DNA of 64,000 nucleotides, taken from NCBI RefSeq assembly GCF_000428945.1, contig NZ_AUAX01000021.1:62001-126000 (forward strand), written 5' to 3'. The notes beneath the pieces are model-generated. The model was not told where the DNA came from, did not search any database, and saw only the letters and a program-made list of their open reading frames with translations. The first letter of the stretch is position 1. Every line of letters begins with the position of its first letter. The DNA comes from Hamadaea tsunoensis DSM 44101 (lineage in GTDB: Bacteria > Actinomycetota > Actinomycetes > Mycobacteriales > Micromonosporaceae). Position numbers and translations under genes: made by a program. Below are positions 53,139 through 64,000 of the stretch, piece after piece.

Positions 53139-53936
53139 ATGGCACCCAAGCCCGAGTGCGCTCTCGTGCTTCTCGCGGACATCGAGGACTACAGCAGCAG
53201 ACTGGACGTGGTGCAGGCCAAGCTGCGGGATGCGCTGGTGGAGGTGCTACGCGAGGCCGCTGACAACGCGCATGTCGATTGGGCCGGCTGGACCCACGAG
53301 GACCGCGGTGACGCGGTTCTGATCTTCGCGCGCAAGCCGGGTCCGGTGGAGATCCTTGGCGACTTCGTCTACCAGCTCAGCCTCGGACTGAACGCGTACG
53401 CCGAGTCGCGTAACGAGAGTCATGCCATGCGGCTGCGCCTCGCGGTCCACCATGGATACATCTGGCAGGACAGCCGGGGCTGGGTCGGATCGGCGATCAA
53501 CGCCGCCACCCGGCTCTGTGATTCGGATGCCGCACGGAATGCCCTTGAGACCCATCCGGAGTCCAAGCTGGTGGTCATTGTCGGCGACGAACTTCATCGA
53601 GATGTCATCATGCAGGGCCACCCCTCCATACCGGCGGCCGACTATCGGCCGGCCCGTGCCGTCGCCAAGAAGACGGACCAGCCGGCCTGGGTCTGGACTC
53701 CGCCCGGCCCGGCTTCGGCCCAGCGTCTCGATCCGGGAAGTCCGCCGGGGGCGAATGCTCCGGAAGCTCCGGGCACAGACACGGGAGCCGGTGGTGAGAA
53801 CGCCGCCGGTGCGACGGGCGTCGCGCCGCGAACCAGCACGGAAATTCACGCCGAGCGCATCGGCAACGTGGTCACCGGTCCGCTGAGCGTGCAGCACAAC
53901 CTCATCGGCATCGTCGAAGGAGGGATGGGAGGGTGA
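53139..53936 (+). CDS. Class III nucleotidyl cyclase-like protein
   Basis: 265 aa from ATG 53139 (AAAGG 8 nt upstream). Residues 6-175 match a class III cyclase homology domain. Both metal-binding aspartates are present, Asp14 in LLADIEDY and Asp58 in RGDAVLIF, 44 residues apart as normal. The transition-state pair Asn121/Arg125 is present in GSAINAATRL. The purine-selecting Lys position is Glu54 and the second selector looks like a glycine, so the base used is unclear. A Pro/Gly/Ala-rich tail follows, ending with IGNVVTGPLSVQHNLIGIVE. No membrane segment. It is the first gene of an overlapping series; GTGA joins it to the next gene. It may make a cyclic nucleotide or be a sensing pseudo-cyclase. 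Confidence 0.7.
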   Translation: MAPKPECALVLLADIEDYSSRLDVVQAKLRDALVEVLREAADNAHVDWAGWTHEDRGDAVLIFARKPGPVEILGDFVYQLSLGLNAYAESRNESHAMRLRLAVHHGYIWQDSRGWVGSAINAATRLCDSDAARNALETHPESKLVVIVGDELHRDVIMQGHPSIPAADYRPARAVAKKTDQPAWVWTPPGPASAQRLDPGSPPGANAPEAPGTDTGAGGENAAGATGVAPRTSTEIHAERIGNVVTGPLSVQHNLIGIVEGGMGG

Positions 53937-56200
53937 CACAGCCCGCCGACGTTCCAGGCGCGCAGCCGCCCCCCTCGCCTGGTGGCGGGGACCAGGCAGG
54001 GCCACCTGCGACTCCGGACAACCCGCAGGCGACGGGCGCGCCGCAGACCGGTGCGCAGGCTGATGCGGGGCCGAGCCGGGCCGGGAAGACGACGTACGTC
54101 GCCAAGACGCTGCACGACACGGGCAGCGTCTCCGCGCGGCAGCAGATGAGCCAGGCGGCACAGCGCAGCCTGAGCGTCGACCGCCTCGGCATCTACGCCG
54201 CCGCCGGAGTGCACGCCGAGGGCGATCTGATCGGCCTCCAAGTCAACATGGCGACGGAGCAGACCCTGCTGCCCGGCCGCTTGCCCGACGCCGTCTACCT
54301 CTCGGTCAAGGAGGCGTTCGTCGGCGACGAGAAAGACCTCATCACCGCGGTGGAACAGCTGGGCGCCGTGCCCACCCTGGTCGTCTGCGACCAACCGGGC
54401 CGTGGGCGGCTGGCTCGCGCGGTGCGCGTACTCCAGCTGATGGAACACGCCACGATCCGCGTCGTACGCGCGGTGAAGGATCTCAAGGACAACGTCGTCG
54501 AGGGCACGGGCTACATCTACATGCCGGCGGACAGCGGCGTGGTGGACATGCGTGAACTGGATTCGCTGGGTGTGCAGTTGAGCCACGCGGGGGCCCGGTT
54601 GATTCTGATCCTTCCGCCCGAGCGCATCACGGTCGAGCTGCTGGAGATCCAGATTCAGCTGCCGCCCGGGCCGAGCGCGATGGACGTACTCAGGCGTCAC
54701 CTGTCGTGGCGCCTCGCCGAGGAGTCCGCCGCCGCCACCACCGTCGTGCAGTCGATGATGGCCGACTTCGTCGCCGACGACGCACCGCTGCGACATGCGG
54801 CCGATCTCGCCCAATGGATCTTCGAGGCTCGTTCGGACAATGGCTACGACTATGAATCGGTACGCGCCCGGGTCGACGAACGTACGCGTACCGCCTTCGA
54901 GATCTGGTTCGACCAGCTCGATCGTGAGTCGCAGGTATTCGCCATCGCCTTGGCGGTCCTCAACGACCTGCCTTACGAGTACGTGGTCGACGCGGCGCGG
55001 TCGTTGCGGCGGCGGGTCATGCCGCCGATCACGGTGCTCAACGCGGGCTCGGAAGGCAATGAGATCGCGGTCCGGGCCCCGGCCGACACCTTCCAGATCT
55101 CGCGGCGCGAGCGGCTGACCCGGTTGCACGCGATCGTCGAACGCAAGGACGTACGCGGCGAGTACGGCATGGCGCCGGCCGACGTGATCCGCTACCGGAA
55201 TCCGGCCTACGCGCCGCAGATCATTCAGCGGGCGTGGTCCCAGTACGCGGCCCAGGCGCAGTTGCTGGACTGGCTGCGGGAGCTCGCGGTCCACCCGGCC
55301 GAGCCGGTACGCGTATGGGCGGCGACGGCGATCGGCATCCTGACCGCGGAGTCCTTCGACTACCTCTGCGAGACGGCGCTGGAGACGTGGGCACTCAGTA
55401 AATCGATGTATGCCCGCTCGGCTGTCGCGCACGCCCTGCATGTGCCGGCGAGTGATCCCCGGTTGCGCCCGCACGTCCGCAAATTGGCCGCTACCTGGGC
55501 CGATGCGGCGGCCATGACCGAGGCGACCGACCTGACCGATGACGACTTCGAGGTCGATCGGCTCGCCCAGGCGACCGCCGCCCGCATCTACGGCGTCACA
55601 CTCGGGCGTGACGAGCCTGACGAGTCGCTGAGCGCGTTGCGCCGGCTGGCCGAGATCGACGACATCCGCGTCGCCCTCGCAGTCGGGGAGAGTCTCGCGG
55701 AGCTGTTGCTGGACCGGCCCGAGCGGGCCGAGCCGATTCTCGCCAACGTGCTGTCCTGGCTGGACGAGGACGCGGACAACGAGGATCTCGCGGCAACCGC
55801 CCACCTGGCCTTCTTGATCCTGGCCACCAGCCTCGTGGTCGAGGTGCCCAGGGCAGAGGGCGCGGCGGACGCCTTCTCGTGGCCGATGCTGTTGCACCTG
55901 GCCGCGGAGAAGCCGGCACTCGGCTTCGGCATAGCGCGCATCTGGCACTACGCGATGTCGACGACCCGCTACTTCCCCGAGCAGGCGGACCTCGTCCTGG
56001 CCCAGTGGCTACGGCAGGTCGCCGACGACCAGCGGGCCTGGAGCCCGCTGGCGACGCTCGCGTCCCAGATCTGCTTCGACGATCTGGGACTGCACCAGCA
56101 CCTGCTGACTCTGGTCGAGACCTGGATCACGGACGGCACTCTTACCCCTTCGAACGCGGCGGCGGCGGCCGTCCGTGACAAGTTGATCTCTCAGAGGTGA
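53933..56200 (+). CDS. Large protein of unknown function with HEAT-like repeats
   Basis: 755 aa from GTG 53933. Residues 1-60 are Pro/Gly-rich and disordered. Residues 60-270 form an alpha/beta region (LGIYAAAGVHAEGDLIGLQV, VPTLVVCDQPGRGRLAR, GARLILILPPERITVELLEI). It is helical from about 270 on, with repeat-like segments in the C-terminal half (VHPAEPVRVWAATAIGILTA, MYARSAVAHALHVPASDPRL) typical of HEAT/ARM scaffolds. No family is recognised. GPSRAGKT near residue 46 fits the Walker A pattern but lacks a preceding beta-strand. Overlapped by neighbours on both sides, so it belongs to the cluster and may be a target-recognition or scaffold subunit. Confidence 0.75.
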   Translation: MTQPADVPGAQPPPSPGGGDQAGPPATPDNPQATGAPQTGAQADAGPSRAGKTTYVAKTLHDTGSVSARQQMSQAAQRSLSVDRLGIYAAAGVHAEGDLIGLQVNMATEQTLLPGRLPDAVYLSVKEAFVGDEKDLITAVEQLGAVPTLVVCDQPGRGRLARAVRVLQLMEHATIRVVRAVKDLKDNVVEGTGYIYMPADSGVVDMRELDSLGVQLSHAGARLILILPPERITVELLEIQIQLPPGPSAMDVLRRHLSWRLAEESAAATTVVQSMMADFVADDAPLRHAADLAQWIFEARSDNGYDYESVRARVDERTRTAFEIWFDQLDRESQVFAIALAVLNDLPYEYVVDAARSLRRRVMPPITVLNAGSEGNEIAVRAPADTFQISRRERLTRLHAIVERKDVRGEYGMAPADVIRYRNPAYAPQIIQRAWSQYAAQAQLLDWLRELAVHPAEPVRVWAATAIGILTAESFDYLCETALETWALSKSMYARSAVAHALHVPASDPRLRPHVRKLAATWADAAAMTEATDLTDDDFEVDRLAQATAARIYGVTLGRDEPDESLSALRRLAEIDDIRVALAVGESLAELLLDRPERAEPILANVLSWLDEDADNEDLAATAHLAFLILATSLVVEVPRAEGAADAFSWPMLLHLAAEKPALGFGIARIWHYAMSTTRYFPEQADLVLAQWLRQVADDQRAWSPLATLASQICFDDLGLHQHLLTLVETWITDGTLTPSNAAAAAVRDKLISQR

Positions 56201-58179
56201 TGATGAATCCGCAGGCCCCGGAGCTGTTCGTCCGTACGCCGGTACAGCAGCTGGCTTTGTCGAAGGTGGAGAAGCCCCCGCACATCTACGTCGTCTACTC
56301 CACGGTCGATGGTCACGTGATCGACCTCGGCGGCGGTCGCGTCGCCGGTGTGACCGACCGGGTCGGGCGCGGGCTGAAGTACCGGTACGACGTGGACGTG
56401 TCGCCACGTGAGGCGCACATGCGCGTCAATCCGGGAACGCTCAAGAGTTCGGAGCAGGTGTTCGACTTCGGCGGATTCGTCCATATAGGATTCCGGATCT
56501 CCGACCCGGCGGCGTTCGTTCGCTACGGCCAGCCGGCCGGCGCCCACAGCCTCGTCACCAGCCGGGTGATGGAGAAGATGCGGATGATCTGCGCGCAGTA
56601 TCCGATCACCCGGGTCGGGGACGCCGAACTCGCCGTCAATCGCAGCTTCGAGCAGCCCTTGGAGCTGAGGATGGAGGGCGTGACCGTCTACCGCTGCGTC
56701 GCCAGTCTGTCGGTCGACGACCAGCACGGCGAGCACGCCAAGGCGGTCCGCGCCGCCGAGCAGCAGGCAGTCCTTGCCCAGCATGCGCATACGGCGAACG
56801 TGCAGAGCGCGGCCGCGTCCGTCGAAGTACAGAGCATCCACGACAGTCACGCCCGGGAGAGCCAGCGCAAGCTCGTCGAGACGTTCAGCGGCATGAACAT
56901 CGATGAGTCGCAGCTGCTCAAGATCTTCGTCGCCCAGAATCCCGCCAACGCGGCGACCGCGTGGCAGCTGCTCGCCGAGCGGGACGCGGCCCGGCATCAG
57001 CGCGAGGACATCCGCAACGAGGTCTCGCTCCGAGTCTTGCAGTTCCTGGTCGACAACAAGCTGCTCACCCGCGGGCAGTTGCAGCAGGTGCTACCGCACC
57101 TCACGGCGCTCGACGACGGTCGGCAACTGTGGGCCGTGGCCGCCGCGTCGGCGCCCGCGGCGCTGCCGGCGGGACCGGACCCCTACCCGACGATCGAGGG
57201 AAGTGTGCAGGCCACGCCGGCGGCCCGGCCGTCGGTGGTACTCGGACCCCAGGCGCAGTCGGCCGGCCCCGGCGGTCCGGCCGGCAGCCCCTACTCGGCA
57301 CCGGCTCCCGCTCCGATGGCGGCTCCTGCTCCGGCGAACTCAGCCGGTCCCGCTGCGCAGGCCCGGCCGGCTACCCGGCCGCCGATGTCGACCGCGCCCA
57401 TGCAGATGCGGTTGCCCCAGCAGCCCGGCTCGACTGCCGACACGGCGGCGTCGCCCGTGATCCCGGTCGCGCCCCCGGATCAGGGCACCGCGGCGGTGGC
57501 AGCGCCGCCGGTCCCCGCACCGGCCGCCCCGCCGACGGCTGACGTACAGCCGATCTACGTGCTCGTGGACACCTCGACCGCGCTCGCGCCGTGGGCTCCG
57601 CAGGCCCAGGGCGGCCTCACCGATCTGCTGCGCGAGGTCGGCGCGAGGCCCGACGTCGCGGCGACGCTGCGGCTGGCCGTCTTCGGCATCGCGGACACGG
57701 TACGCGAGGTCGTCCCGCTCGGCCCAGTCGGTGCTGCCGTACCGGCGTGGCCGCCGGTGGCGGGGGCGTCGGCGTCCTTCGGGTCCGGCTTCGGCGAGCT
57801 CTTCCGGCGCGTGCAAGGAGACGTGGCCACGTTGAAGAGCCAGGGGCACTCGGTCAAGCGGCCGGTCGTGTTCCTCCTCCTGGGCGCCGAGCCACCGGCG
57901 GACTGGTCCGGCCCGCGTACGCGGCTGGCCGATCGGCAGGCGCTGCCGGCCGGGCCCAACATCGTCGCGTACGGTCTCGGCGGCACGACGCCTGTCACCG
58001 TACGGGCGATGGCCACACGGCCGGACTTCGCCTTCCAGTCGGCCGACGCCGACCTGGGCGCAGGGCTCGCCGCATTCTGGCGATCGGTGACGGAGAGCGC
58101 GATTTCGACCGGTGAGACCCTCGTTCGGGGAACACCGACACTTTCGGTCAGGGATCCAGAAGGCTTCCAGCGGGCCTGA
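56197..58179 (+). CDS. Band7/SPFH-like and vWA-like fusion protein
   Basis: 660 aa; GTG 56197 overlaps the previous stop, with ATG codons at 56200 and 56203 as alternatives. Residues 15-190 resemble a Band7/SPFH-type domain without an obvious membrane anchor (VFDFGGFVHIGFRISDPAAF). A helical region to about 330 follows. Residues 330-445 are a Pro/Ala linker. Residues 448-640 are a vWA-like domain starting PIYVLVDTSTALAPW, where the MIDAS DxSxS is reduced to DTSTA; PVVFLLLGAEPPADW is a later strand. In ternary conflict systems vWA proteins pair with NTPases. Assignments are by pattern, not by search. Confidence 0.68.
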   Translation: MMMNPQAPELFVRTPVQQLALSKVEKPPHIYVVYSTVDGHVIDLGGGRVAGVTDRVGRGLKYRYDVDVSPREAHMRVNPGTLKSSEQVFDFGGFVHIGFRISDPAAFVRYGQPAGAHSLVTSRVMEKMRMICAQYPITRVGDAELAVNRSFEQPLELRMEGVTVYRCVASLSVDDQHGEHAKAVRAAEQQAVLAQHAHTANVQSAAASVEVQSIHDSHARESQRKLVETFSGMNIDESQLLKIFVAQNPANAATAWQLLAERDAARHQREDIRNEVSLRVLQFLVDNKLLTRGQLQQVLPHLTALDDGRQLWAVAAASAPAALPAGPDPYPTIEGSVQATPAARPSVVLGPQAQSAGPGGPAGSPYSAPAPAPMAAPAPANSAGPAAQARPATRPPMSTAPMQMRLPQQPGSTADTAASPVIPVAPPDQGTAAVAAPPVPAPAAPPTADVQPIYVLVDTSTALAPWAPQAQGGLTDLLREVGARPDVAATLRLAVFGIADTVREVVPLGPVGAAVPAWPPVAGASASFGSGFGELFRRVQGDVATLKSQGHSVKRPVVFLLLGAEPPADWSGPRTRLADRQALPAGPNIVAYGLGGTTPVTVRAMATRPDFAFQSADADLGAGLAAFWRSVTESAISTGETLVRGTPTLSVRDPEGFQRA

Positions 58180-58201
58180 AGACAGTGAGTACGATCGCTG
58201 C

Positions 58202-58879
58202 ATGGTGGGCATCTCCCAAGCCAGCCGATTCTGGCCCTCACTGTCCGAAAAGGACCGTGGGGAGCTCTTGGCGCTCGGGCAGCGGCGGATGTTCTCCGTG
58301 GAGAGCGTCATCATCGAACAGGACGCCCCGCCGGGGCTCGTCTTCGTCATCCTTTCCGGCTGCGTCAAGGTCGTCGCCCTCGACAAGAGTGGTTACCAGG
58401 CGATTCTCGCCCTGCGTCAGGCCGGGGACGTGGTCGGCGAGATGGCGAGCCTCGACGGCGGCACCCGGTCGGCGTCGGTGCTGGTCCTGTCCGAGGTACG
58501 CGCGCTCACATTCCGCTCCGAGGTGTTCAGCACCTTCATTCGTGCACATCGCGAGGCGGCGGCGGTCCTGCAGCGCTGTCTGGCCGAACGGCTCCGCGAG
58601 GCCGACCGGCACCGGGCGGCCGCCGCCACCTACTCCACCACGCAGCGGCTTGCCCGCATCCTCATCGATCTCAGCCGCAACCATGGCAGTCCCCAGGCGG
58701 ACGGAAGCGTTCTCATCGGTCTCCCGTTGTCCCAGGATGACCTGGCCGGCCTGCTGTCGGTGTCGCGGCGTACGGTCGCGCGGATCATGGAGGACTGGCG
58801 CAGCGGCGACATCGTCGCGACCGGCCGACTCGCCATCCACATCAAGGATCAAGGGCGCCTGCTCGCCATTGCCGCCTGA
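58202..58879 (+). CDS. Crp/Fnr family regulator with cyclic-nucleotide-binding domain
   Basis: 225 aa from ATG 58202. N-terminal cNMP-binding beta-roll with an intact phosphate-binding cassette (VVGEMASLDGGTRSAS: Glu80, Arg89, Ser90). After the dimer helix there is a winged HTH: LPLSQDDLAGLLSVSRRTVA with RIMEDW. It is not the fumarate/nitrate Fe-S type, as no N-terminal Cys cluster is present. TACGAT lies 6 nt before the ATG and no Shine-Dalgarno sequence is seen, so it may be leaderless with its own promoter. It starts 22 bp after the vWA-fusion gene. The cyclase-like protein five kilobases upstream could supply its ligand. Confidence 0.9.
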   Translation: MVGISQASRFWPSLSEKDRGELLALGQRRMFSVESVIIEQDAPPGLVFVILSGCVKVVALDKSGYQAILALRQAGDVVGEMASLDGGTRSASVLVLSEVRALTFRSEVFSTFIRAHREAAAVLQRCLAERLREADRHRAAAATYSTTQRLARILIDLSRNHGSPQADGSVLIGLPLSQDDLAGLLSVSRRTVARIMEDWRSGDIVATGRLAIHIKDQGRLLAIAA

Positions 58880-59284
58880 TCCGAACGGGCGCCGCGAGTG
58901 TCATCGCCGTTGTGCGTCAGATGGCCTATAGGAACGTGTCGCGGGCCGCGATCATTGCACTGGTAACCGGGTGTCGAACAAGTGGGCCGGACTTACCTGC
59001 CGGAGTAGCCATCGTAGACCAAGGAAAATGGCCCACCGCTTCTCGAGGAGCCACTCTGTACGGCGGACCGGGCATGTCTATACGGGCATAGATGGTCAAC
59101 CGCCGTGGAGAAAAAGCAGTCCGCGAGTCAACGTGATCAAGATATAGGCTCCCACCACTGCGGCTTGTGTTATTCGAGGACCTCGACAGCTGCTCGCACA
59201 CCGCGCGGCATACCTACTGGAGAACACAGTGGAGCTGGCGTTCAGCCGAAAATTCGGACCTATGTGGACTATCGGAGCCGGACT
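58880..59284. other. 405-bp promoter region of the second half of the cluster
   Basis: Lower GC than the genes around it. It contains the imperfect inverted repeat CTATACGGGCATAG (59079-59092) and an AT-richer stretch with GATATAGG near 59138. It is a possible target of the adjacent Crp-type regulator, but no TGTGA-type site is clear. No gene recognised. Confidence 0.4.
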
Positions 59285-61117
59285 GTGAATTCGGGATCGC
59301 CCGTGACGGCGCGCTGCCTGATCTGCGGCTGGCCGGCCGGCACCGGGGCGGAGTGCATCGTCTGCCACTCTCCGCTGGCCGGCGCCGAGGATGCCCGCCG
59401 CCGGGCTCGGCTGGCGTGGGATCTGCGGGCCGCGCACCGGGCGGCGGCCGGTGACGAGCGCGCCCTGCTGGCCCTGGTCGCCGAGGTACGCAGCGACGAC
59501 CCGGTCGAGCCGGCGGACATCCTGGCCGCCGGTATGAACCTGCGCTGGGAGCCTGACCGGCATTACGACCACAGTCTCGGTGCGATCGCAAACCTGCTCA
59601 GCGCCCTTGTCGCCGGCGACCTCGAAGTACTCGTGTTCGTCTGCCTCACCGCCGACGGAATCGAGCTCCACCGAGCGGAGGCGAGCGGCTCGCGGCTGGC
59701 GCACATGGCCGACCCCGGACCGAGATCGGAGTGGGCGGAGCTCACCGCCGCTCTGCCCACCGACCCACTGCGGCGCCGATTCGTGCTGGCGGGGGGTATC
59801 GGCACGAACGAACCCGCCGACCCGGTCGCCGTCGTGGCTGACATCCTCTCCCAACTGCCGGACCTCGACGCCCTGTTGATCTCCTCCCGGCGGGCGATCG
59901 TCGTGGTCGACGGCTGCCCGGACTGGCTGCCGTTGAGCCGGGTACGCGCCGAGGCGGTCACCCGTTACCGGGCGTCGACGTGCCTCAAGCATCCCCTGAC
60001 CGGCCCCGATGACAGCGCGGCCGCTCTCGTGGACAGCCTGGTACGCCAGGCCCCGGTCGGCGTACGCCATGAACTGGTCCTGATCCGGCCCGGTGACGAC
60101 GGTGTGCTCCAGCTGGAGATGGCGACCGTCCTACGGCCCGGTGAGAAGAGCACGGCGGTCAACGAGGTGGAGATCTACGCGCCGGTGGGCCCGACAGGGC
60201 CGGTGGCGTTGCCGTTCGTCATCCGCCCGACCGCGGTGACGGAGCCCGCGGACTGGGAGATGGTCGAGCTGATGCTGGCCGATGTCCCGCGGGGACGGCG
60301 TAGCCGCATCCGGGTCTCCCTCAACGACCGCGCCCAGTTCGCGCTCGACGGTGTGCCGGTCGTGAGCGGGCCTTCGTCGACGTGGCTGGAACTGTTGCAC
60401 CGCATGCCACGCCGCCTGGTCGGTGGTCCGATCGACGTCGTCTTCGCGGTAGAGCTGGTCGACGGTCCTGCCGCCGAGGCCCGGCTCGATCTGGTCCGCG
60501 CGACGGTGGACGCGATCGCGAGTGAGGTGTGGGATCCCGAGCTGATCAGGGTCGGTGCGATCGGCTACTTCCAGCATGGTGACCTACGCCGGGAACCGGA
60601 GACCCATGTTCAGCCACTCACCGCCCCGGCCCTGGCCAAGCGTGCGCTGGCGGCCTGGCGTACGCGATCCAATGTGGATGATTACGCCGCCTGCGTGGAG
60701 GAAGCCCTCGCGGACGCCGCCGAGCTGGCCTGGCGTGACGAGGCGCACCGCTTCCTCGTGACGTTCGGATCTCGGCCCCCCTACCTGCGGGACCAGCTGC
60801 CGGCCTACACCAACGCGTGTCGCAAAGGGCTGGACTGGGTTGCGGCGTACAACCATCTCGCGGCGCGTGGCGTACGCATGATCGGAGTGCTCGGTCAGCC
60901 GGAGTGGCCTGCCCCGCGCACCACCGATGACGTCGCCTGGGTACGGCTGCACGAGGCGTGGCAGGCGCTCGGCGCGCACGCCTCCTTCGCACAGCAGGAC
61001 ACCGAGATCGCCGACATCCTGCACGCGGTGCAGGTCGCGTATGTCACGCCGTCGACCCCGTTCGCGTACGCGGTCGCGACTTCCCCCAGTCGGAACCATC
61101 CGGAGAGGACCTCATGA
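59285..61117 (+). CDS. Zinc-ribbon and degenerate vWA domain protein
   Basis: 610 aa from GTG 59285 (GGAG 7 nt upstream). A CxxC-x9-CxxC zinc ribbon occupies residues 11-27 (CLIC ... CIVC). The middle part (about 90-370) is alpha/beta with repeated beta-rich segments, some like TerD/vWA-associated modules. From about 380 the sequence GGPIDVVFAVELVDG starts a vWA-like Rossmann fold whose metal-binding DxSxS is lost; LVRATVDAIASEVWDPELIR and HRFLVTFGSRPPYLRD continue it. It is coupled to the GTPase gene by an ATGA overlap. It probably senses or scaffolds within the GTPase/GAP1 system. Confidence 0.7.
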   Translation: MNSGSPVTARCLICGWPAGTGAECIVCHSPLAGAEDARRRARLAWDLRAAHRAAAGDERALLALVAEVRSDDPVEPADILAAGMNLRWEPDRHYDHSLGAIANLLSALVAGDLEVLVFVCLTADGIELHRAEASGSRLAHMADPGPRSEWAELTAALPTDPLRRRFVLAGGIGTNEPADPVAVVADILSQLPDLDALLISSRRAIVVVDGCPDWLPLSRVRAEAVTRYRASTCLKHPLTGPDDSAAALVDSLVRQAPVGVRHELVLIRPGDDGVLQLEMATVLRPGEKSTAVNEVEIYAPVGPTGPVALPFVIRPTAVTEPADWEMVELMLADVPRGRRSRIRVSLNDRAQFALDGVPVVSGPSSTWLELLHRMPRRLVGGPIDVVFAVELVDGPAAEARLDLVRATVDAIASEVWDPELIRVGAIGYFQHGDLRREPETHVQPLTAPALAKRALAAWRTRSNVDDYAACVEEALADAAELAWRDEAHRFLVTFGSRPPYLRDQLPAYTNACRKGLDWVAAYNHLAARGVRMIGVLGQPEWPAPRTTDDVAWVRLHEAWQALGAHASFAQQDTEIADILHAVQVAYVTPSTPFAYAVATSPSRNHPERTS

Positions 61118-62223
61118 GCCTCCAGCCCCCGCCCGTGTCGTCGCGCCTGGCGTCTTCCAACTCGGCCGCTCCGGTCGTCGCCGGTCCAGCGCCGGCGGTG
61201 CCGAGACCGCCGTCCTCGGCGCGGCCGTCCGCGGCGCCGGCGCCCGCCGTGCCACCCGGCCCGCCGCCCATCAGCATCGGGCTGTGCGGTGCCACCGGCG
61301 GCGGCAAGACGACCTTCCTGGCTACCTTGAACACCGCGATCCAGAACGCCAACCTCGGTGGCGACCAGTGGACGTTGACCGCGCGCGACGAGGCATCGCT
61401 CAAGTTCCTGCGCGAGCGCGAGGCCGAGGTGATCAGTGGCCGCATGTTCCCGCAGAGCACCACGGTCACCAGTCAATACCAGTGGCGGATCGACGGGAGT
61501 ACGGCGCCGGCGAGAACCGGGCGGTTCCGGCGTACGCCGACCGCGCGGCCGATCAGCTTCGTCATCGACGTGGAGGACCGGCCCGGCAGCGCCTTCCTCA
61601 TGGACGACGACGCCAGCTTCAAGATCACTGAGGAGGGCCTCAAGCGGCTCGCCGACGCCAGTGCCCTGATCTTCATCTTCGACCCGATCCGCGAGCTCGA
61701 CCGCGGCGACGTGCAGGTCCGGTCCAACTGGCAGTACTTCAGCGGTCTGGTGCAGACCCTGGGCATGCGCCTCGGACAGCTGGGCCGGCTCGCCCCGAAC
61801 GGACGGCTGCCGCACAAGCTGGCGGTCTGCGTCACCAAGTACGACGACCCGAAGATCTTCGGGCACGCGTACCACGCGGGGCTGATCGACGTGGACGCCG
61901 ACGGACAGCCGCACGTGCCCGCCGATCGCACGAACGAGTACTTCGAGTGGTTCTGCGGATTCGCCGAGCGGCACGCTCAGGACTCGGCGCCGTCTCAGTT
62001 CCTCGGCCTGATGCGAGCCTCCTTTCAGCCCGACGCCGTACGCGTCTTCTGCACCTCGTCGGTGGGCTTCTACACCGAGCCCGGCAAGGAGATCGACCTG
62101 CACGACTGCTGGAACGTCCGCATCGTCGACGGGTTGCCCCGCGTACGCGGACGGCTTCGCCCGATCAACGTTCTGGAGCCGCTCGCCGCCCTGGAAAGCA
62201 AGATCAGCACGGGGGCGTGGTGA
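61114..62223 (+). CDS. P-loop GTPase of the GAP1-associated type
   Basis: 369 aa from ATG 61114 (ATGA overlap). A Pro/Ala-rich N-terminal tail of about 50 residues is followed by the P-loop ISIGLCGATGGGKTTFLATL (Gly59-Thr66). The guanine-recognition motif is probably CVTKYDD (Thr241-Asp244), in the place of NKxD. Walker B-like FVIDVEDRPG lies between. The arrangement fits the divergent GTPases found next to GAP1 proteins in predicted NTP-dependent conflict systems. The last base of its stop is the first of the next ATG. Confidence 0.8.
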   Translation: MSLQPPPVSSRLASSNSAAPVVAGPAPAVPRPPSSARPSAAPAPAVPPGPPPISIGLCGATGGGKTTFLATLNTAIQNANLGGDQWTLTARDEASLKFLREREAEVISGRMFPQSTTVTSQYQWRIDGSTAPARTGRFRRTPTARPISFVIDVEDRPGSAFLMDDDASFKITEEGLKRLADASALIFIFDPIRELDRGDVQVRSNWQYFSGLVQTLGMRLGQLGRLAPNGRLPHKLAVCVTKYDDPKIFGHAYHAGLIDVDADGQPHVPADRTNEYFEWFCGFAERHAQDSAPSQFLGLMRASFQPDAVRVFCTSSVGFYTEPGKEIDLHDCWNVRIVDGLPRVRGRLRPINVLEPLAALESKISTGAW

Positions 62224-64000
62224 TGTCACAGGCGCGGACCGTCGCCGTTCGCTGGGCTCTGCGCGGCAAGCCGCAAGGGTCGGCCGACGACTACCAGATC
62301 ATGGCGTGCGACGCCGGGGCGGCGGCCCGGTCGACCTATGCGGCGCGCATCAGTGACATGGTCCGGGCCGACCCCAGCTCGGCTTCCGAGGGGCGCGTGG
62401 ACGCGCTGCCCTGGCTGCTGGTGGGGCCGTGGGAAGCGGAGAACCGGGTCAGCGCGGCCATCGTGTACTGGCCGGACGCCGACTACCGCGACGGTGTCGG
62501 CCGGCCGGTGATGTTCACCCGCTATCTCGACGTTCCGTGGCCGGACCTCGCCGCCGCCGGAGCGGACCTGGCAGGGCTTTACACCGCGCTCGCGACCCTG
62601 CCCGCCGACGGTTCCCGCGCGGCCCAGGTGACGCTGTCCGAACCGGACCCGGCCGGGATGCTGGCGACAGTGGAGGCCCTCGATCCGATCTGGCTCGCCG
62701 GAGTGGCGGCGGCCCTCCTCGACGGCCCGGTGCGCATCGTGCCGGACGCCCGCAGGCAGACTGCCGAGGACCGCCTCCAGGTGCTGGACGCGGTCGCCAC
62801 ACTGCTGCCGTACGGGCTGCGCGCCCGGCTGTCGGCCGGTACCTGGTCGGCGCACCCCGGTGACGGGCTTCGGCTGGCCTTCGCCGCCCAGGCGAGTGAG
62901 GGCCAGCAGCTGGTGCGCTTCGGCGAACCTGTCGGTGCGCACCGGGGCCTGGCCGCCATCGAGTACGCCTACCGCTGTTCCCGCCTGCTCAAGAGCATCG
63001 GTACCCAGGGCGTGGTCGAGGCGCTCTGGCGGGACCGGCGTTCCTACGATTGGGCTGACCCGGGCCAGGTCCTGCGGAGCCTGGAAGGGTTGGACCGGCC
63101 GTTCGCGGTGCACCAGGACATGCTGATGGGCACCGCGAAGATCAGCGATGTCGTGGCCCTGCTGAACGCCCCCGAGACCGACCTCGCCAGGGCCGAACCG
63201 GAGGTGGTCGACCGGCTGGTCCGCGAGGTCGCCGGCAAGGCCCTCGGCGACCAGGTACGCGCGCTCGACCGGCACTGGCCCGTCCCGGCTGTCCGCGAGG
63301 CGATCCTCCAGTCGATGCTGGCCTGCGCCAATCCGCGGCAGACGGTTTCGCTCTGGCGGACCGCCGACGCGTACGGCGAGAGCGTTTCGGTGTTGTGCGA
63401 GCTCATCGACCGGGCGAGCGTCGGCAGCCTCGACGAGCGCCACCATGTCGCCGCGTTCCTGGCCGAGATGAACATGTTCGCACCCGGTGAAGAGCTGCGC
63501 TGGGCGCTGCTGACGGCACCGGAGATCACCGCTCTGCTGGTCCTTGAACTTCTGCCGACCCGGGCAGCGTACGCGCGACCCTGGCTGGACCTCTTGTTCG
63601 GCGACACGGCGACCGAACGTCCACAGTGGGCAGAGGCGTTCGTGGCGATGCGTGCCGGCCGACCTGTTCTGACCAAGGAGCAGATCCTGCCGGACGCGCA
63701 CGGCGGGCGCTGGATGATGCTCGCGCTGCTGGCCGCGGCCGATGCGGCCGGTACCCCCGGCACCTTCCTCACCTGCGACAACGCCTGGTCGGTGCTGCTC
63801 AACCAGCTCAAGGCGGACGACGCCGCCGTCAAGGCGCGGTTCAAAGCGCTCGCCCTCGGTCTGTCCAGGCTGGACGATCGTCCCCACGCCGCCCTCGACC
63901 TGCTCGTCTTCGCGGTCGGCGGCCTGGCCGGCAGCACGCCCTGGGACGGGCGCGCGTACGCCGCGGTGGCCGACTACTACGCCGAGATCAACCAAAAGCT
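62223..64000 (+). CDS. GTPase-associated protein 1 (GAP1)-like protein, 3' end outside window
   Basis: At least 592 aa and still open at the window end. ATG 62223 shares a base with the GTPase stop (GTG 62220 is an alternative). The N-terminus VRWALRGKPQGSADDYQIMA, then LPWLLVGPWE and DYRDGVGRPVMFTRYLDVPW, is as I remember for GAP1 N-terminal domains, followed by the long helical middle region. GAP1 is the central large subunit of GTPase-based conflict systems predicted in multicellular bacteria. The C-terminal, often effector-bearing, part is not in the window. The assignment is from memory of the family pattern. Confidence 0.72.
   Translation, partial: MSQARTVAVRWALRGKPQGSADDYQIMACDAGAAARSTYAARISDMVRADPSSASEGRVDALPWLLVGPWEAENRVSAAIVYWPDADYRDGVGRPVMFTRYLDVPWPDLAAAGADLAGLYTALATLPADGSRAAQVTLSEPDPAGMLATVEALDPIWLAGVAAALLDGPVRIVPDARRQTAEDRLQVLDAVATLLPYGLRARLSAGTWSAHPGDGLRLAFAAQASEGQQLVRFGEPVGAHRGLAAIEYAYRCSRLLKSIGTQGVVEALWRDRRSYDWADPGQVLRSLEGLDRPFAVHQDMLMGTAKISDVVALLNAPETDLARAEPEVVDRLVREVAGKALGDQVRALDRHWPVPAVREAILQSMLACANPRQTVSLWRTADAYGESVSVLCELIDRASVGSLDERHHVAAFLAEMNMFAPGEELRWALLTAPEITALLVLELLPTRAAYARPWLDLLFGDTATERPQWAEAFVAMRAGRPVLTKEQILPDAHGGRWMMLALLAAADAAGTPGTFLTCDNAWSVLLNQLKADDAAVKARFKALALGLSRLDDRPHAALDLLVFAVGGLAGSTPWDGRAYAAVADYYAEINQK

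Follow-up and report, generated by a model that had tools for sequence, protein, structure and literature searches.

In the 9.48 Mb genome of Hamadaea tsunoensis DSM 44101, the stretch of 64,000 nucleotides considered here (hereafter the window, itself part of a 164 kb contig) carries seven predicted genes on its + strand at 53139-64000, which were confirmed as real with corrected gene junctions, the gene calls being those of a purpose-built codon-usage caller. The first four, encoding a class III nucleotide cyclase, a putatively NLR-like HEAT protein, a putative divergent Band7/SPFH protein and a Crp-family regulator (block 1), belong to a recurring module separate from the GTPase/GAP1 system encoded by the next three (block 2). 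The evidence tilts slightly towards block 1 being an NLR-gated cyclic-nucleotide module. A preliminary description had arranged the seven genes in two blocks of a single conflict cluster; the genes and both blocks do exist, but the blocks are two separate things. The features are as follows:

53139..53936, + strand: class III nucleotide cyclase of 265 residues, keeping the metal residues Asp14 and Asp58 and the transition-state Asn and Arg, with Glu/Gly for base recognition
53844..53912, + strand: C-terminal stretch of the cyclase aligning with the HEAT protein N-terminus, though weakly in the window pair
53933..56200, + strand: putatively NLR-like HEAT protein, with a degenerate P-loop (GxGR) and HEAT repeats (HEAT_2, E=0.002, below cut-off)
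54170..54238, + strand: counterpart of the cyclase stretch near the HEAT protein N-terminus, 54-76 residues ahead of the GxG
56197..58179, + strand: putative divergent Band7/SPFH protein with a vWA-like C-terminal region, no Pfam match
58202..58879, + strand: Crp-family regulator, with the cyclic-nucleotide (cNMP) phosphate cassette Gly79, Glu80 and Arg89 intact and Ala134-Asp135 as base-contact pair
59285..61117, + strand: zinc-ribbon (ZnR) protein, no family match, vWA-like according to the preliminary description, with a homologue in Catenuloplanes japonicus (locus L035)
61114..62223, + strand: DO-GTPase-like GTPase with G1, acidic Walker B and TKxD motifs
62220..64000, + strand: GAP1-like protein, cut by the window end, the gene ending at 64634

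The separation of the two blocks appears from their distribution. In the first sample, i.e., 36 neighbourhoods of the HEAT gene including three from outside the window's family, the GTPase and GAP1 genes were present at two loci, namely the window and L035; reciprocally, a HEAT gene was near one of 78 named GTPase loci, which were obtained by scanning named genomes with the GTPase alignment and keeping the best 80 of 118 relatives. On these counts, the cyclase, HEAT and Band7 genes were rejected as parts of the GAP1 system; the link between the blocks being exceptional, the cyclase and its Crp belong to their own recurring module and not to that system. As such, the preliminary description stands as regards the GTPase/GAP1-like nature of block 2 and the pairing of cyclase and Crp, but not as regards the inclusion of that pair in the GAP1 system. 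Throughout, statistics treat loci as independent after thinning at 50% identity, an independence which is partial, and some loci of relatives are shortened by contig ends.

The HEAT protein was matched in 27 of the 121 genomes of the window's family, a count possibly limited by search sensitivity. With one alignment and three candidates scored per genome, a homologue was found in 4 of 346 genomes; because another profile recovered one in 124 of the 246 genomes of a single genus, by inference Streptomyces, the former figure is a sensitivity limit, and confinement of the HEAT family to a few genomes was rejected. The second sample comprises 60 loci of this genus, picked among the matches listed, with the recurring order Crp, cyclase, HEAT, Band7 and PycTM. 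Of note, the starts of rpsL and rpoC are both nearby at 20 of these 60 loci (L188-L247), the module lying between them; for a module resembling defence systems, this is an unusually constant position among housekeeping genes. A search for the module in plasmid records gave no record in one scan and one weak record in another. No description of the block 1 module was found in the literature searched, i.e., titles, abstract starts and passages of PMC7159879 and PMC8195603, mostly open-access.

Within block 1, cyclase and Crp form a linked pair, as initially supposed, with the Crp tracking cyclase-type loci and the base-contact residues covarying. The class III cyclase fold of the window enzyme was confirmed, with the two metal Asp, the Asn and the Arg all kept; no window protein scanned matched DUF2652 in Pfam, another cyclase-like family (PMC4886424). 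The window Crp exhibits both a cNMP-binding domain with the GE and R residues, Glu80 and Arg89 being intact as previously noted, and an HTH_Crp domain. In the first sample, a Crp gene lay within 10 kb at 19 of 21 loci with a cyclase as 5' gene versus 1 of 15 others (p=4e-7), or 14/16 versus 0/11 with one locus per cluster (p=6e-6); at L069, the sole positive locus outside the cyclase type, a Crp and a PycTM-like gene were called but a 5' gene was not. In the second sample, a Crp gene was found within 6 kb at all 55 cyclase-type loci and at none of the five others, directly upstream on the same strand in 51 of the 55. The window genome contains seven cNMP-binding genes in its 9.48 Mb. In a clade test of the Crp, two of the six other Crps of the window genome gave a called gene, which left too few unlinked Crps.

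A PycTM-like gene accompanies 14 of 21 cyclase-type loci in the first sample and 40 of 55 in the second, PycTM scoring above its Pfam cut-off in 5 of 10 small neighbours scanned. Judged by eye from their coordinates, 9 of 22 PycTM genes are located less than 10 kb from a HEAT gene. A class III cyclase beside a cyclic-nucleotide receptor, together with PycTM-like genes in many relatives, recalls the Pycsar systems combining PycC with PycTM or PycTIR (PMC11224242). Contrary to Pycsar, the receptor here is a Crp transcription factor, HEAT and SPFH-like genes are added, and the window cyclase has neither PycTM nor PycTIR beside it, the window genome being without PycTM; besides, the window cyclase has Leu two positions before the first metal Asp where two PycCs have Tyr or Phe, following the numbering of PMC11224242 as interpreted here. 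The PADLOC PycC models gave no match for the window cyclase, and the PycTIR and PycC models match the window Crp alone, via its cNMP-binding region.

The pockets of cyclase and Crp covary. Ser128 of CRP is the base-reading position (PMC11224242); at the equivalent position, module Crps have Asp or Asn, rarely Thr, and all readable ones retain Gly, Glu and Arg for phosphate binding. Among 71 cyclase-Crp pairs, the Crp has Asn in 16/16 pairs where the cyclase has Gln at the base position without Arg or Thr two positions before the second metal Asp, and the remaining 55 have Asp (53) or Thr (2). First noticed in the first sample, the covariation is in agreement with the second, apart from one Gln locus with Asp (L225, within the 71 pairs), where the cyclase has Gln at -4 and Arg at -2 and the Crp is non-adjacent. 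Left out of the 71 pairs were (i) L035, with a degenerate cyclase bearing Gln and a Crp bearing Asn, (ii) L050, with a split Crp of which one piece has Asp and another, of 87 residues, was read as Asn, and (iii) L066, with two Crps, both Asp, and a Ser/Arg cyclase. As the Crp/Fnr relatives compared also have Asn there, Crp Asn alone does not name the base. The window pair combines Glu-Gly in the cyclase with Asp in the Crp. A Glu-Gly pair also reads guanine in the guanylyl cyclase Cya2 (PMC4886424), and changing Lys to Glu and Asp to Gly in Ma1120 raised guanylyl cyclase activity, ATP still being preferred (PMC4215837); the Ma1120 mutant with these very changes is the top structural match, tied with others, of the window cyclase model. 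Based on the Cya2-like Glu-Gly, the Crp Asp and this structural match, the messenger of the window is probably cGMP-like, a prediction which need not hold family-wide since many relatives have Ala at the Glu position.

The enzyme is further paired with the HEAT protein through their termini. Over its last 45 residues, the 5' protein resembles the N-terminal part of its own HEAT partner more than that of others, with scores of 46.4 versus 25.3 (19 loci, p=2e-5; L040 and L046, which have no same-strand 5' gene, not being included). The match holds in 13 held-out loci, L069 and L074 being likewise left out (41.9 versus 26.2, p=2e-5; p=8e-4 with 8 representatives), as well as in 22 representatives of the second genus (40.1 versus 24.6, p=5e-5). 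Control regions were null (p from 0.18 to 0.97), by which an origin from shared composition or neighbour effects was rejected. By eye, 40-60 residues separate the end of the HEAT motif from the degenerate P-loop in 15 of 25 representatives; the window motif fits this pattern by its position, while its score does not stand out. In the HEAT protein itself, Walker A is degenerate (GxGR), with Gly158 invariant in 21/21 aligned sequences, and neither a Pfam NTPase match nor an intact NACHT or NB-ARC domain was found. As for the next protein, no Band_7 match was obtained with Pfam and the PDB profile search was unproductive, whereas comparison with Band_7 by hhalign gave a probability of 67.5 (E=5e-5).

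Amyloid motifs associated with bacterial NLRs occur in the same gene arrangement, mainly with Bell and also with TIR effectors (PMC7889193). The likeness to such amyloid signalling (BASS; PMC7889193, PMC8086366, PMC12261475) includes adjacent effector and NLR-like genes, the match, in the family though weak in the window pair, between effector C-terminus and receptor N-terminus, and the presence of TIR effectors. The differences are an effector which is a cyclase, a degenerate NTPase domain, HEAT repeats, and the SPFH-like and Crp genes. No report of a cyclase as amyloid-motif partner of an NLR was found in the literature searched.

The enzyme at the 5' end is exchangeable. Besides the stand-alone cyclase, it can be TIR-like, a fusion of a TIR-like and a degenerate cyclase domain, a nucleoside phosphorylase (PNP_UDP_1, E=4e-19), a DUF4145 protein or another protein, the TIR label being based on an N-terminal pattern and one below-cut-off Pfam match (TIR_2, 25.1 of 28 bits). 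At L041 (5276-7149), a stand-alone cyclase sits beside a TIR-cyclase fusion; since their C-termini are similar (score 54, the fusion versus HEAT scoring 42), the two effectors may share one sensor. At the second HEAT locus of the window genome (L061:8498-11556), a HEAT paralogue is paired with a DUF4145 protein which may act as effector, their motif score being modest (33). The preliminary description comprised neither the exchangeable 5' enzyme, the NLR-like HEAT protein and the paired terminal motif, nor PycTM in relatives.

Taken as an NLR-gated module, block 1 could operate as follows. The HEAT protein would act as the sensor or as a scaffold, anchored to the membrane through the SPFH-like protein. 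Upon a trigger, it would nucleate the C-terminal tail of the cyclase via the matching motif, by an amyloid-type or other homotypic contact, and nucleation of the tails would bring together cyclase chains, as a dimeric class III enzyme needs. The product would be read by the neighbouring Crp and, in many relatives, also by a PycTM pore; in the TIR or nucleoside-phosphorylase versions, the enzyme is swapped, and neither Crp nor PycTM is present. The window copy of the module adjoins a DO-GTPase/GAP1 and vWA-PP2C-kinase system, and on account of this join the Crp may switch expression of the latter operon.

Judging from its sequence, block 2 is related to, yet divergent from, the DO-GTPase/GAP1 conflict systems described by Kaur et al. 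in 2020 (PMC7159879), without being a typical member, a classification which follows from Pfam matches below curated cut-offs. The resemblance claimed in the preliminary description is thus present though weak: the GTPase matches DO-GTPase2 (E=0.002, 18.1 bits versus a cut-off of 27) and the GAP1-like protein matches GAP1-M (E=6e-4, 20.4 bits versus 24; 19.8 bits for the whole protein), and two homologues scanned score no better. In an alignment inspected by eye, the GTPase motifs are intact, i.e., a GATGGGKTT P-loop, a DVEDRPG Walker B with Glu, and VTKYDD. The GAP1-like gene lies directly 3' of the window GTPase, and such a gene was found in 75 of the 78 GTPase loci with a profile built from four sequences, three of them taken from the same set of loci. 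Beyond 64000, the + strand continues with the GAP1 end, a vWA protein with a likely membrane segment, a second vWA (VWA, E=6e-10), a PP2C (PP2C_2, E=3e-25) and a kinase-like protein, labelled so from sequence resemblance, no Pfam match being obtained. The vWA-PP2C-kinase genes occur in 4 of the 78 GTPase loci.

The arrangement resembles the GAP1-N2 type of DO-GTPase/GAP1 systems (PMC7159879) in having a GTPase gene then a GAP1-like gene, and the membrane-segment vWA, stand-alone vWA, PP2C and kinase-like genes may correspond to its third, actinobacterial theme; according to the same paper, a linkage with kinase, PP2C and vWA is seen in 10% of GAP1-N2 neighbourhoods and is confined to actinobacteria. 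It differs by family matches below the curated cut-offs, by a zinc ribbon encoded in a separate preceding gene, by no FNIII match being seen in the cluster proteins scanned with Pfam, and by the cyclase-HEAT-Band7-Crp genes upstream. The window and L035 share the order cyclase, HEAT, Band7-vWA, ZnR, GTPase, GAP1, vWA, vWA, PP2C and kinase-like, so that the blocks are linked in a relative as well; the Crp follows Band7-vWA in the window. Proteins of L035 are 31-60% identical to those of the window, apart from the small vWA at about 80% (66553-67224 in window numbering; L035:17517-18191). At L036, L039, L042 and L044, the vWA, PP2C and kinase-like genes come directly after Band7-vWA; because these loci have no GTPase cassette in between, the cassette is considered to be placed inside this order.

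Further downstream, the same strand encodes EAD1-trypsin, EAD1-AAA (its EAD1 match being below cut-off), a cyclase-like/AAA protein and FxSxx peptide genes. The cyclase-like/AAA protein (71608-75120 in window numbering) has a degenerate class III cyclase-like N-terminal domain, having lost Asn and Arg, fused to an AAA/STAND-like region. The FxSxx system (75730-83890) looks complete and comprises FxsC, an FxSxx-TPR protein with a ParA-like N-terminus, an HExxH protein, the radical SAM protein FxsB and an FxsA-like precursor of 57 residues matching below its cut-off. With FxsB, FxsC, FxSxx-TPR and the FxsA-like precursor, this region is like the FxSxx peptide systems linked to CRP-like regulators (PMC7159879); the difference is that the window Crp is encoded together with a cyclase, some 17 kb from this region, and tracks the cyclase in relatives.

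Several observations weigh against block 1 being an NLR-gated cyclic-nucleotide module. In the window, the motif pair is weak (score 27 versus an off-diagonal mean of 24.1, rank 7 of 25) and outscored by Crp (34) and EAD1-AAA (33); among representatives, the own partner is the best of its row in 13 of 25 and 7 of 22, and in many it is not. PycTM is absent from the window genome at E<=0.001, and no Crp operator stood out upstream of the cyclase or Crp genes. The covariation may rest on one or few evolutionary changes: a supported group (95/94) unites the 11 N-type Crps found in the first sample, and the Gln-type cyclases are mostly on one side of the tree. The NLR-like designation of the HEAT protein, i.e., a degenerate STAND-like domain with HEAT repeats, derives from a sequence motif, the PDB profile search having given weak P-loop and HEAT matches and nothing further. 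Finally, the Catenuloplanes cyclase homologue is without both metal Asp, and the Crp and PycTM of that locus adjoin another cyclase-domain gene about 5 kb upstream on the opposite strand. This degenerate copy and the TIR-fused cyclase domains without catalytic residues, like the inactive cyclase domains in vWA proteins reported by Kaur et al. (PMC7159879), speak for a cyclase which would be a binding-only or regulatory pseudo-enzyme, the HEAT, Band7 and vWA proteins acting by assembly alone. Such a scheme is very doubtful, considering that the window cyclase keeps its two metal Asp, the Asn and the Arg, that both metal Asp are kept in 70 of the 71 cyclase-Crp pairs (the exception being a gapped row, and L035, L050 and L066 being left out), and that Crp tracks stand-alone cyclases and not TIR fusions.

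Alternatively, block 1 could be a housekeeping signalling cluster, in which cyclase, Crp and membrane scaffold sense physiological or envelope stress or development, with no anti-invader role. The near absence from plasmid records, the position near both rpsL and rpoC at 20 of the 60 second-genus loci and the presence of a HEAT homologue in about half of the second-genus genomes all favour it; on the other hand, the patchiness in the window's family (a sensitivity-limited count), the exchange of the enzyme for TIR or phosphorylase, the PycTM neighbour and the linkage to GAP1-like and EAD1 genes do not, leaving it a possible though minority explanation. That both blocks make up one integrated system, with the cyclic nucleotide acting within the GAP1 pathway, seems unlikely given how rarely they are joined, even though the vWA-PP2C-kinase genes occur with either block alone and the order is the same in Catenuloplanes japonicus, which at such identities means that the join is old or repeatedly selected. 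The NLR-gated cyclic-nucleotide module is retained for block 1 as slightly more likely than not; a role against invaders, as proposed in the preliminary description, is hypothetical.

Similar sensor-enzyme-regulator circuits look to recur in related bacteria, the window copy looking joined to an already described defence-like gene set. Tentatively, and with less than even probability, they could constitute a widespread form of immunity in actinobacteria: from a single operon, an NLR-like sensor would template a cyclase by a prion-like motif pair and the cyclic nucleotide would activate both a dedicated transcription factor and a membrane pore, with at least two messenger types arising via paired cyclase and receptor changes. 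Because the pockets of enzyme and receptor covary, the nature of the messenger is open to testing and, as a homologue of the HEAT protein is frequent in one genus, by inference Streptomyces, laboratory strains may carry the module. If true, three bacterial immune themes, namely NLR amyloid pairs, Pycsar messengers and GAP1 GTPases, would be brought together in one circuit, to which a transcriptional arm read by a dedicated Crp would be added.
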